Shown here: positions 37,561 through 41,675 of the stretch, piece by piece
How the letters are laid out: every line of letters starts with the position of its first letter
Position numbering within the stretch: the first letter of the stretch is position 1
From: Actinotalea lenta
GTDB lineage: Bacteria > Actinomycetota > Actinomycetes > Actinomycetales > Cellulomonadaceae
Assembly (NCBI RefSeq): GCF_030586465.1
Contig: NZ_JAUQYP010000001.1
Span: 434,001 to 498,000 of the forward strand
Length of the DNA stretch: 64,000 nucleotides
Reading direction: 5' to 3'
The notes under the pieces: model-generated
The model's input: the letters and a program-made list of their open reading frames with translations, nothing else
What the model was told of the DNA's origin: nothing
Databases searched by the model: none
Program-made: the position numbers and the translations under genes

Positions 37561-37645
37561 CGGTCTCGGTGCCCGCCACCGGGAACGCGTGCCGGCTACC
37601 GAGGGAACGCGCGGGGCGTCCGGAAAGTGCCCGGCGCCCTGTCCG

Positions 37646-38575
37646 TCAGCCGGACGGCAGCAGGACGATCTTGCCGTGGGTGTGCTGCTCCTCGAGCACC
37701 GCGTAGGCGGTGCGCACGTCCTCGAGCGGGAGGGCGGCCGCGATCGGGACCTCGAGCTCGCCCGAGCCGATGAGATGGATGAGCTCGTCCAGGACGTGGG
37801 CCTGGGACGCCGACTCCTGCCCGCGGTTCTGCGCGCCGAGGCGCTGGGCGGCGACCATGTCGACCACCGTGTCCACGCGCCCGGGCTCGACACCGAGCTC
37901 CTCGATCGCCATCTGCACGTAGCCGTGGCCGTAGCAGTCCACCATCGCGTCCACGCGTCCGCCGGCGGCGCTGCTGACAGCCGCCGCGATGTCCCCACGG
38001 TGCTCGACGGGCGTGGCTCCCTGCTCGCGCAGCCAGGAGTGGTGGTGGTGCCCGGCGATCGCGACGACGCGCGCCCCGGCGCGGCGCGCCAGCTGCACCA
38101 CGAGGCTGCCGACCCCACCGGCGGCGGCCGTGACCACCACCGTCTCCCGGCGGCGCAGCTGGACCGCGTGGACGGCCGCCCAGGCGGTCAGCCCGGCCAA
38201 CGGGAGCCCCCCGGCCGCCTCCCAGCTCACGTTCGCGGGCTTGCGCACCAGGTGGTGCACGGGGACCGTCACGAGCTCGGCCTGCGCCGCGTGGTCGTGG
38301 GTGAACCCCACGACCTCGGCGCCGATCGCCATCCGGGTCACCCCCGGACCGACGTCCTCGATGACGCCGGCCAGGTCGCTGCCCTGGCCGGACGGGAAGC
38401 TCACCGGGAAGAGCCCGTCCAGCCAGCCCTCCCGGACCGGGACGTCGTCGGGGTTCACCCCGGCGGCCCGTACCCGGACCCGTGCCTGACCGGGCCCCGG
38501 CGCTGGAGGGTCCGGTACGTCGCGCACCTCGAGGACCTCGGCGCCGCCGTACCTGTCGAACTGGACCGCCCGCAT
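37646..38575 (-). CDS. Zinc-free quinone oxidoreductase-like dehydrogenase
   Basis: A 309-residue MDR enzyme beginning [20 protein letters not shown]. The N-terminal GroES domain has [15 protein letters not shown] and the nucleotide loop is [19 protein letters not shown] at ~residues 147-165. Zinc ligands are absent, as in NADPH:quinone reductases. It probably reduces quinones or unsaturated carbonyls with NADPH. Transcribed divergently from the deazaflavin-dependent reductase gene, with a 111-base gap that must hold both promoters. Confidence 0.9.
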
Positions 38576-38686
38576 CGCGGCTCCCCTCGTTCAGCGTCGG
38601 CGCCTCCCACCTCGATCTTCGCACGGGCGGCGGGCACCCGCCCCCCGCTGCGGAATCGGCCGGGCCCGCGCGCTGTTGTGGCGGAC

Positions 38687-39124
38687 ATGCCACTGCATGG
38701 GGAGTACGCACCGTCCACGTCCGACTGGGCCCGCGACCAGGCCGAACGCTACGAGGCCTCCGGCGGCACCGAGGCGAACACCCTCCAGGGCCGGCCGATC
38801 ATCGTGCTGACCTCGCTGGGGGCGCGCAGCGGCAAGCTGCGCAAGACCGCCTTGATGCGCGTCGAGCACGGCGGCGAGTACGCCGTGGTGGCCTCGAAGG
38901 GCGGCGCACCCGAGCACCCGGTCTGGTACCACAACCTCGTGGCGCACCCGCTGGCCGAGCTCCAGGACGGGCCGACGAGACGCGACTACACGGTGCGCGA
39001 GCTGTCCGGCGACGAGCGCGAGACCTGGTGGCGGCGCGCGGTCGAGGTCTGGCCGCCGTACGAGGAGTACCAGGCGAAGACCGACCGCCGCATCCCCGTG
39101 CTGCTGCTCAGCCCCGTGAGCTGA
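38687..39124 (+). CDS. Deazaflavin (F420)-dependent nitroreductase family protein
   Basis: At 145 residues this matches the DDN-like family common in actinobacteria (older name DUF385). The signature [20 protein letters not shown] at residues ~46-65 is followed by [20 protein letters not shown], which forms the F420-binding edge of a split beta-barrel. Such enzymes reduce quinones, nitro compounds or unsaturated ketones with F420H2. The start is ATG at 38687; a second ATG three codons in is possible but less conserved. No F420 biosynthesis genes are in view. Confidence 0.9.
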
Positions 39125-39514
39125 GCCGCGGGGACGCCGCAGACGTCTCGCAATATGAGATGCCTGGTGTCCATCCGCCTCAGGACGCGGCGCTGAACGC
39201 GGTGTCGGCACAGTTGTCCCCGGCCTGCATCGTCCGTGGCCAACCCTTTGCCGAGCCGACCCGATCTGCGGCCGTACCGCACTCTTGAGCTCCTGGCCGC
39301 CGCCCTTCCGCGCGCCTCGCTCGTCAGCGTCCTTGACGTTTCTTTGGCGGCTTTCTTGCCTCATTTGTCACGGGCTTGGTGCGGCCTCGTGTGACGACGG
39401 TGTGAACACTGTGCGAGCAGGGCGGATGAGGACCTTCGACCCCCTGAGATGTGCGGGTGCACTGCCGAGGATTGGGGTGTCAGCACGTCCGTTCAAACCC
39501 CGAAGGTGAGTCCC
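39125..39514 (+). other. 390-base gene-free region upstream of the micro-gene
   Basis: No convincing coding sequence. Its middle is less GC-rich than the surroundings. It contains the imperfect palindrome TCTCGCAATATGAGA at 39146-39160, just after the reductase stop, and an 11-base-spaced direct repeat of TGTGA at 39390-39407. The micro-gene promoter should lie between these repeats and position 39515, but no clear -35/-10 pair was found. Confidence 0.5.
39390..39407. promoter_or_regulatory. 11-base-spaced TGTGA direct repeat
   Basis: TGTGACG at 39390 and TGTGAAC at 39401 are direct repeats exactly 11 bases apart. On the other strand this reads GTTCACA-CCGT-CGTCACA, the spacing and look of OmpR/PhoB-family sites such as PhoP or MtrA boxes in actinobacteria. 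It lies 108 bases upstream of the micro-gene start. Confidence 0.35.
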
Positions 39515-39610
39515 GTGAACTCCCCCGCCGCCGTCGAAATCCTCGACCAGATCGATATCGAGCTCGAGCACCTCGACGACACGACCGACCCGTTCCTCTT
39601 CTGGGACTGA
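39515..39610 (+). CDS. 31-residue acidic peptide upstream of DUF4914 gene
   Basis: A 32-codon frame with a GTG start and AAGGTGAG 4 bases upstream. Nearly every codon ends in G or C, as in real genes of this genome. The peptide is strongly acidic, with no Cys, Lys or Arg. Its N-terminal two thirds can form an amphipathic helix (AVEILDQIDIELEHL) and it ends in DDTTDPFLFWD. A perfect 8-base-pair hairpin begins 6 bases after the stop. It may be a modified-peptide precursor, a regulatory leader peptide or a small protein partner of the DUF4914 product. I recognise no family. Absence of a signal or Cys argues against lantibiotic-type precursors. Confidence 0.65.
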   Translation: MNSPAAVEILDQIDIELEHLDDTTDPFLFWD

Positions 39611-39616
39611 TCGGTC

Positions 39617-39638
39617 CACGCCGGCCCCGTCCGGCGTG
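39617..39638 (+). terminator. Perfect hairpin directly after the micro-gene
   Basis: CACGCCGG and CCGGCGTG pair perfectly around CCCCGT, 6 bases after the micro-gene stop. It has no T-tract. It may stabilise or partly terminate the short transcript, leaving lower expression of the DUF4914 gene 127 bases further on. Confidence 0.5.
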
Positions 39639-39764
39639 ACCTGAACGTTCGCGCCAGCCCCTAAGGTCCTAACGACCCCCCTGGGGCCTGCTCCTACCGT
39701 CTCGGTACAGTGCCCGAGGTCTGCCCGCCTGGCGGGGAGGCCGCACACCGAGCGAGGAGCCCAC

Positions 39765-41675
39765 GTGACGACGATCGCCCATCGCCCCGTCCTGCCCGAC
39801 GTCACCCTGCCGCCGGCACTGCGGACCGCGCTGGACTCCTGCCTGGACATCACGATCCCGGCGACCCGTGAGGAGCTGTACTGGCTCTCGCTCGGCCCCG
39901 AGCGGGGGCCGAAGTACGACGTGTCGTACGACGTCAACGGCACCCGGGTCAAGGAGGTCGACGTCGTCCGCTGCACGAACGGCATCGCGGTCAACTACGT
40001 CGAGGACTACATGCGGCGCCGCGACCCGGACTGCATGCGGATCGCCGACGACCTGCCGAGCGACAAGCCGCGCTACCGCGACCGGCACGGCGCGGAGTTC
40101 GACCCGGTCAAGGCCGAGACCCTGCAGTGGTTGTCCGAGCAGTCGCTCATCCTGGTGCCCTTCAAGGCGGGCGGCCCGCGATTCGGCTCGCCGTCGCTGG
40201 CGGTCGTCCCCACCAACGCCGCGTTCTTCGCGCTGGCCCTGATGGACCTGCAGGGCTGGGTCACGTTCGACGAGATCGGTCCCTACACACCCCGCTCGAT
40301 CCTGTACGTGGCCCCGCCGTTCCGGCACACCCGCTTCGACGGCAAGCAGATCGTGGTGCACGACCGCACCGACGAGCTGCACGAGATCTTCGCCTACAAC
40401 CTCTACCCGGGCCCGAGCGCCAAGAAGGGCGTCTTCTCGGTGCTGCTGGACATCGGCGCGCACGAAGGTTGGCTCACGGCGCACGCGTCGTCCGTGCGGG
40501 TCACCACGCCGTACGAGAACGAGACCGTCGTCATGCACGAAGGAGCCTCGGGTGGCGGCAAGTCGGAGATGTGCCAGGACATCCGGCGCGAGGACGACGG
40601 TCGCATCCTGCTGGGCTACAACGTGGTCAGCCAGGAGCCGTACCACATCACCCTGGCGCAGTCCTCGCGGCTCGAACCGGTCACCGACGACATGACGCTG
40701 TGCCACCCGTCCGTGCAGGACGCCCCCGGCAAGCTGGTCGTCGCCGACGCGGAGGACGGCTGGTTCGTCCGGGTGGACAACCTGCGGGAGTACGGCGAGG
40801 ACTACGACCTCGAGAAGGCGTTCATCCACCCCACCCAGCCCCTGGTGTTCTTCAACATCAAGGGCGTCCCCGACGCCACGGCTCTGCCCTGGGAGCACAC
40901 CCTGGACTCCACCGGCAAGCCCTGCCCCAACCCGCGCGTGGTGATCTCCCGGCGGGAGTTCGGCGACGTGGTCGACGAGCCGCAGCCCGTGGACGTGCGC
41001 ACGTTCGGTGTCCGGATGCCGCTGTGCACGCGCGAGCAGCCCAGCTACGGGATCATGGGCATGACCCATTTCGTGCCCCCGTCCATCGCGTGGCTGTGGC
41101 GGCTGATCGCACCGCGCGGGGACAAGAACCCCTCGATCGGCGCCACCGACTCCGAGCTCTCGGCGGTCCACCACGGCGGCATGATCTCCGAGGGCGTCGG
41201 CTCCTTCTGGCCGTTCTCCACGGGCACGAAGGTCGGCGGAGCGAACCTGCTGCTGCGTCAGCTCGTCGAGGCCGACCGAACCCGGTACGTGCTCACCCCG
41301 AACCAGCACATCGGGGCATACAAGGTCGGGTTCTCCGCCGAGTGGCTGACGCGCGAGTACCTCGCGCGACGCGCCGGCCGGATCCGGCACGACAAGCTGG
41401 TGCCTTCGCGCCTGCCGTTGCTCGGCTACACCCTGGCGGACATGCGCATCGACGGCCAGGAGATCCGCCCGACGTTCCTGCGCACCGAGCGGCAGTCCCG
41501 GGTCGGGGTGGAGGCCTACGACATCGGCGCGCGGATCCTCGCCGACTTCTTCAAGTCCGAGCTGCGCCAGTACCTCACCGACGAGCTCGACCCCCTGGGC
41601 CGGCAGATCATCGAGCTGTGCCTGCGGGACGCACCCGTCGAGGAGTACGAGGCCCTGACGCCGATGTACGCCTGA
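39765..41675 (+). CDS. DUF4914 family P-loop protein
   Basis: A 636-residue cytosolic protein that I match to DUF4914, a family of unknown function. The only strong motif is a Walker A loop GASGGGKS at residues 260-267 followed by EMCQDI, similar to the ATP loop of PEP carboxykinase and HPr kinase. The N-terminal 250 residues contain many aromatic residues and a probable substrate domain. Asp-rich loops (VADAEDGW, DNLREYGEDYD) follow. GAGGAG lies 5 bases before the GTG start. The only close upstream neighbour is the 31-residue peptide gene. It converges with the acyltransferase gene over a gap of 6 bases. A kinase or carboxykinase reaction is plausible but unproved. Confidence 0.82.
   Translation: MTTIAHRPVLPDVTLPPALRTALDSCLDITIPATREELYWLSLGPERGPKYDVSYDVNGTRVKEVDVVRCTNGIAVNYVEDYMRRRDPDCMRIADDLPSDKPRYRDRHGAEFDPVKAETLQWLSEQSLILVPFKAGGPRFGSPSLAVVPTNAAFFALALMDLQGWVTFDEIGPYTPRSILYVAPPFRHTRFDGKQIVVHDRTDELHEIFAYNLYPGPSAKKGVFSVLLDIGAHEGWLTAHASSVRVTTPYENETVVMHEGASGGGKSEMCQDIRREDDGRILLGYNVVSQEPYHITLAQSSRLEPVTDDMTLCHPSVQDAPGKLVVADAEDGWFVRVDNLREYGEDYDLEKAFIHPTQPLVFFNIKGVPDATALPWEHTLDSTGKPCPNPRVVISRREFGDVVDEPQPVDVRTFGVRMPLCTREQPSYGIMGMTHFVPPSIAWLWRLIAPRGDKNPSIGATDSELSAVHHGGMISEGVGSFWPFSTGTKVGGANLLLRQLVEADRTRYVLTPNQHIGAYKVGFSAEWLTREYLARRAGRIRHDKLVPSRLPLLGYTLADMRIDGQEIRPTFLRTERQSRVGVEAYDIGARILADFFKSELRQYLTDELDPLGRQIIELCLRDAPVEEYEALTPMYA

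Follow-up and report, generated by a model that had tools for sequence, protein, structure and literature searches.

An acidic FWD-tail microprotein of Actinotalea lenta and its probable place in a low-oxygen-type regulon

A micro-gene at positions 39515 to 39610 (+ strand) of the 64,000-nucleotide stretch of Actinotalea lenta DNA analyzed here (the window, taken from a genome of 3.3 Mb) is fairly likely to encode a stand-alone microprotein of a regulon under a DosR/DevR-type switch, a peptide that would act through its C-terminal tail. Its frame, its orthologues, and a family profile assign the 31-residue product to the FLFWD subtype of an FWD-tail microprotein family. The DUF4914 gene downstream is probably a fellow member of the same regulon.

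Conservation of the micro-gene and extent of the family

The product of the frame, VNSPAAVEILDQIDIELEHLDDTTDPFLFWD*, is read from a GTG start, and 29 of its 31 codons carry G or C at the third base. A Shine-Dalgarno-like AAGGTGAG (39503 to 39510, + strand) precedes the start and is kept in both orthologues, which were found upstream of DUF4914 in two other Actinotalea-type genomes (G001 and G015) and whose proteins are 77 to 81% identical to that of the window. All elements listed in a preliminary description of this DNA, namely a GTG frame with a Shine-Dalgarno sequence, G/C third bases, an acidic product, and a hairpin with an exact 8-bp repeat, were present, and the orthologues bear out its proposal of a conserved micro-gene. 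When the DNA of the three loci was aligned, the frame contained no gaps and aligned far better than most of its flanks, the alignment outside it being poor except where promoter-like islands precede the frame and DUF4914. Synonymous change exceeded nonsynonymous change among the three orthologues (pS/pN 0.39/0.10, 0.28/0.10, and 0.19/0.12), mildly so for the closest pair. Because it is conserved at the same place in two further genomes of the genus, the frame was counted as a gene, and it looks real, that is, more than a chance frame.

The first relative outside the FLFWD subtype was a divergent short frame next to DUF4914 in G014, ending PFWD. We scrutinized 150 genomes of the taxonomic family with an FWD-stop DNA pattern, which occurred at 38 places in 34 genomes compared with seven for the reversed pattern; within the genus, 15 of 17 genomes had a total of 16 places, and the reversed pattern had none. 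Translation revealed short acidic frames of one kind at 26 of the 38 places, the other 12 being dropped after judgement by eye, and these first 26 members were found by the very tail that defines them. A profile of 26 rows run against 200 genomes returned 31 places at E <=0.0055, consisting of its own 26 rows and five new members, while five more members were read by eye from weaker matches (E 0.059-0.28). Ten places beyond the profile's own rows were examined; 89 of the 200 genomes had a match at E <=10, the weaker ones mostly in long frames. The window frame, itself a row of this profile, matched it with E 2.1e-5.

The 36 members thus assembled carry six genus labels, are 19 to 53 residues long with net charges of -2 to -11, start with ATG (29) or GTG (7), and include several close pairs, hence they are not independent. 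A typical frame reads M...DEDDLPPFWD, the usual tail being [DE]LP[PEQ][FY]WD. Sorted by tail, 29 members end xPx[FY]WD, four HPFWD, and three, the window's included, FLFWD; one of the ten later-added members ends PPYWD. Of the eight member pairs computed, six showed a clear excess of synonymous over nonsynonymous change, whereas the excess was slight or absent in G169-G915 (pS/pN 0.10/0.11) and G012-G016 (0.12/0.11). Neighboring genes differ between clades and the loci are unrelated, as judged from clustering of 26 member loci, of which two were truncated by a contig end or short. Several features of single loci were also observed. One genome, G018, encodes two FWD-tail microproteins, ending ELPPFWD and ELHPFWD, at separate loci (L096 and L097). 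A further conserved stretch, TTFLA, starting 19 residues from the end, is common to six members of 36 to 44 residues (L105, L106, L159, L160, L161, and L164). In four genus genomes (L092, L094, L096, and L103) genes of a single cluster, represented in G012 by LuxS (PF02664), lie no more than ~2 kb from the microprotein, and G006 additionally has a PNP_UDP_1 nucleosidase-type gene nearby; other loci have different neighbors.

Beyond the taxonomic family, an LPxFWD-stop pattern gave three matches in 396 genomes of the phylum against six when reversed, and four matches in 396 genomes of the order against none when reversed, three of these four falling in the window's family. A wider spread of the LPxFWD form was rejected, the three phylum matches and the one order match outside the family not being acidic microproteins on translation. 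This pattern is blind to the FLFWD and HPFWD subtypes, so that spread outside the family was tested for the LPxFWD form alone, and in the phylum sample the window's genome was the sole representative of the family. The plasmids searched yielded no match. Scans with 25 of the first 26 members gave no match in NCBIfam and, in Pfam, one weak member match to each of three models (best E 0.022), none of them convincing. A PDB search with the peptide profile returned three matches at E 0.59-2.9 that were read as chance, and the string LPPFWD occurred in no paper of the searched literature. As judged from these sequences the family is lineage-restricted, with an acidic C-terminus ending [FY]-W-D-COOH as its constant feature, and in view of the NCBIfam, Pfam, and literature results it is apparently undescribed so far.

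Promoter elements and the putative regulon

A DosR/DevR-like box, AGGACCTTCGACCC (39429 to 39442, + strand), was recognized upstream of the micro-gene from the three-locus alignment and from its enrichment and position in the family; the two orthologues have GGGACCTTCGACCC and GGGACCAAAGACCC. Scored against a GGGAC-N4-GTCCC-like pattern, the window box reaches 8/10 and both orthologous boxes 9/10. Located 22 nt 3' of the box is a putative -10 of the ANNNT type, CCGAGGAT (39465 to 39472, + strand). Both orthologues have this element at the same spacing, leaderless members have a similar one, and transcription is predicted to start near 39479. The FLFWD subtype has the box and -10 spacing of the family, but displaced ~37 bases farther from the start codon, which is preceded by a leader and a Shine-Dalgarno sequence.

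Across the family, the palindrome GGGACNNNNGTCCC (at least 8 of 10 positions) was found upstream of 22 of the first 26 members compared with 20% of 235 control regions, which lie upstream of the other genes at these loci (p 7e-11). Its half-site was found upstream of 18 of the 26 compared with 10 of the 235. Four of the first 26 members scored only 7/10, and no recognizable box was found upstream of the G923 microprotein. A box of at least 7/10 begins at -49/-50 from the start codon in 24 of the 36 members, although the -49 lock of the last ten members is partly choice, since the box was already visible when their starts were chosen. Of these 24, 20 have A-11 and T-7, as would suit the -10 of an mRNA that begins with its AUG. 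For the first 26 members, whose starts were chosen by eye once an AAGGTCC motif had been noticed but ahead of the box statistics, the corresponding counts are 16 with the box at -49/-50 and, among those, 12 with the -10.

The box is short and GC-rich, and the window's genome contains 18 perfect copies compared with seven of the reversed pattern. Fourteen of the 18 lie inside ORFs as crudely called, two of which, before cydA and near whiB, are barely inside possibly over-long 5' ends. The former, GGGACCAAGGTCCC (L179:1501-1514; G000:C1:2762369-2762382), is followed 24 bases on by TACGGT and lies upstream of cydA, encoding cytochrome bd subunit I (PF01654, E 7.9e-161). The cytochrome bd subunit I gene is a classical low-oxygen gene, and the box before it suggests a low-oxygen regulon. 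An identical perfect box (L185:4145-4158; G000:C2:276144-276157) precedes a small minus-strand WhiB gene (PF02467) by 219 nt and could serve either this gene or the divergent one.

The box fits the published DosR consensus GGGACTTNNGNCCCT and the mycobacterial ANNNT -10 (PMC6448022), the proximal site of the Dev boxes overlaps the -35 element (PMC3029386), and OsdR sites in Streptomyces are similar to the box described here (PMC5069765). Likeness to the DosR/DevR regulon of Mycobacterium and the OsdR regulon of Streptomyces consists of a palindromic GGGAC/GTCCC-type box at -35, an ANNNT -10, leaderless-type starts and, further, cydA behind a perfect box in the window's genome. Two features of DosR/DevR-type membership were found, a box in the promoter and its position over the -35 with a correctly spaced -10. 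The present regulon is a putative one, proposed from promoter sequence, and the search for FWD-tail peptides in those other regulons consisted of the phylum-wide LPxFWD pattern. No paper in the searched literature combined Cellulomonas, DosR, and hypoxia.

The same type of element precedes the DUF4914 gene (39765 to 41675, + strand), whose 636-residue product matches PF16260 with 1015.8 bits and, as the preliminary description had it, carries a Walker-A-like GASGGGKS, which is invariant among 11 aligned relatives. A box half-site, AAGGTCCT (39663 to 39670, + strand), is followed 24 nt on by a putative -10, TACCGT (39695 to 39700, + strand). The half-site was found in 16 of 18 DUF4914 upstreams, the count excluding two of 20 loci (G009 and G019) that are cut at contig ends. 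A TANNNT 21 to 26 nt past the half-site was present in 13 of the 18, one of which (G029) depends on a half-site far upstream, compared with none of 248 control upstreams. These elements suggest that DUF4914 is probably its own transcription unit and a co-member of the micro-gene's regulon. The preliminary description likened this loop to those of HPr kinase and PEP carboxykinase; a PDB sequence search found no relative of DUF4914, the AF2 model obtained from a three-sequence alignment was unusable (mean pLDDT 27.7), and DUF4914 is named in no paper of the searched literature. In a long frame elsewhere in the window (37589-39124), only residues 380-508 belong to an F420H2-dependent quinone reductase domain, and the true start of this gene is probably near 38.7 kb.

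A possible mode of action through the tail

An acidic body combined with an invariant aromatic-acidic C-terminus suggests docking on a partner by a short linear motif. Building on the computed conservation, family, tail, box, and -10 spacing, we propose that the micro-gene would be switched on from its own promoter by a response regulator, presumably of the DosR/DevR type, responding to low oxygen, NO, or a similar signal. A soluble acidic peptide would then be translated under oxygen limitation, possibly in abundance, and could dock via its C-terminal motif on a housekeeping protein. The leading specific candidate for such a partner is SepF, the FtsZ anchor, whose binding site for the FtsZ C-terminal tail would be taken by the peptide, so that division would be held back in dormancy-like states. 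Carried further, the family might consist of soluble FtsZ-tail decoys, in which an often leaderless acidic peptide of 20 to 45 residues occupies SepF and stalls division while leaving FtsZ untouched, the FLFWD and HPFWD forms being re-tuned variants.

FtsZ tails read LD[VIL]PDFLK in all 31 loci of the taxonomic family that were read, some of which, the window's genome included, add two or three residues. The SepF pocket of Corynebacterium accommodates the conserved D, P, and F of this tail (PMC7118173). Similar to this C-terminal peptide, which serves SepF, FtsA, and ZipA as a landing pad, 21 of the 36 microproteins present an acidic run and then D-x-P-x-[FY] in the FtsZ-tail spacing. However, FtsZ has L-K where the microproteins have the invariant W-D-COOH, and D-x-P-x-F in register was found neither in the window's FLFWD subtype, which has no P-x-F register, nor in the HPFWD subtype. 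We regard the decoy version as doubtful, and the broader reading of a regulon peptide acting through its tail as reasonably probable, because comparisons with FtsZ, and with SSB (below), fit the FLFWD subtype less well.

Relation to DUF4914 and alternative readings

Among 19 genomes of the genus, the peptide was found in 16 and DUF4914 in 13. All six genomes without DUF4914 have the peptide, and in three with DUF4914, one of them 83% complete, no peptide was found. A [FY]WD-stop frame occurs within ~1.5 kb in four of 20 DUF4914 loci, on the opposite strand in G014, with two of the 20 loci cut by contig ends. An obligate peptide-DUF4914 pair was rejected on the genus-wide counts, and the functional pairing first suggested, as precursor and modifier or as peptide and regulated enzyme, finds no support as a general arrangement. 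The expectation of a short FWD frame near other DUF4914 genes held for a minority of loci, the same tail being commoner elsewhere, and the 127 bases originally given as the distance to DUF4914 are correct from the hairpin, whereas the stop-to-start gap is 154 bases. The two genes are adjacent mainly in the window's subclade, and the link between them is probably a shared hypoxia-type regulon; given the shared box-type switch, the neighbor is probably co-regulated and not a modifier of the peptide.

It is improbable that, in this subclade, the peptide is a specific partner of DUF4914, such as a small subunit or inhibitor, with the rest of the family working otherwise. An adjacent same-strand pair does occur in the window's genome (G000), G001, and G015, the peptides of all three share the unusual FLFWD tail, and the G001 and G015 DUF4914 proteins are 93% and 89% identical to that of the window compared with at most 75.3% for the other 16 compared. 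Yet the promoter elements are separate, none of the other ten genus genomes with DUF4914 has a same-strand [FY]WD frame in the adjoining stretch (one being cut by a contig end), and co-regulation could account for the adjacency. Just as improbable is a precursor of a modified peptide or cofactor, matured by an enzyme encoded elsewhere, with DUF4914 possibly a kinase-like modifier. The precursors PqqA and MftA combine a conserved C-terminal core with an acidic leader, and the FWD-tail peptides resemble them in being very short, with an acidic N-terminal part and a strongly conserved aromatic C-terminus; the Walker-A loop of DUF4914 would also suit such a role. Unlike with PqqA and MftA, no linked maturation genes were seen at the FWD-tail loci, the peptides have no NCBIfam match, and there is no constant neighbor gene among 26 member loci (two short or at a contig end). 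The peptide is moreover kept in the six genus genomes without DUF4914, and its last seven residues contain no conserved Ser, Thr, or Cys.

The tail was also compared with the acidic C-terminal tip of SSB, which resembles it about as well as the FtsZ tail does. Of 30 SSB loci, 27 encode a D[DE]PPF end and three appear to be misread frames; four further loci, that of the window's genome included, have the same end. The microproteins likewise have acidic residues followed by L-P-P-F. SSB partners require the terminal Phe carboxylate, however, and SSB stops at F where the microproteins end F-W-D. With FLFWD and HPFWD also fitting poorly, mimicry of the SSB tip in competition for repair and replication partners appears very unlikely.

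A perfect 8-bp inverted repeat (39617 to 39638, + strand; arms 39617-39624 and 39631-39638, loop of 6 bases) begins 6 bases past the micro-gene stop and is a possible terminator lacking a T-run. The energy of its fold does not stand out from that of mononucleotide shuffles (z -0.8), and the repeat sequence is not conserved, although both orthologous loci still have an inverted repeat right past the stop, as judged by eye and from folds. A claim of strong terminators in the family was likewise rejected, the mean folding-energy z after the stop being -0.9 over 35 of the 36 loci (one being cut) and clear hairpins occurring in a few. Despite the position of the frame, its 31 codons, and the hairpin right past its stop, the earlier suggestion of a leader-peptide attenuator, with read-through into DUF4914 governed by the hairpin and by translation of the frame, was set aside as highly improbable, since a half-site and a -10 belonging to DUF4914 lie between the hairpin and its start codon, other members precede unrelated or opposite-strand genes, and the hairpin sequence is not conserved.

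Conservation of the tail at unrelated loci, combined with a promoter element at constant distance, speaks strongly for a real function of the regulon microprotein favored here, and direct synthesis and testing are feasible with peptides this short. DUF4914 is placed, probably, in an anaerobic regulon. These data add an apparently undescribed microprotein family to an apparent low-oxygen regulon of cellulose-degrading actinobacteria.
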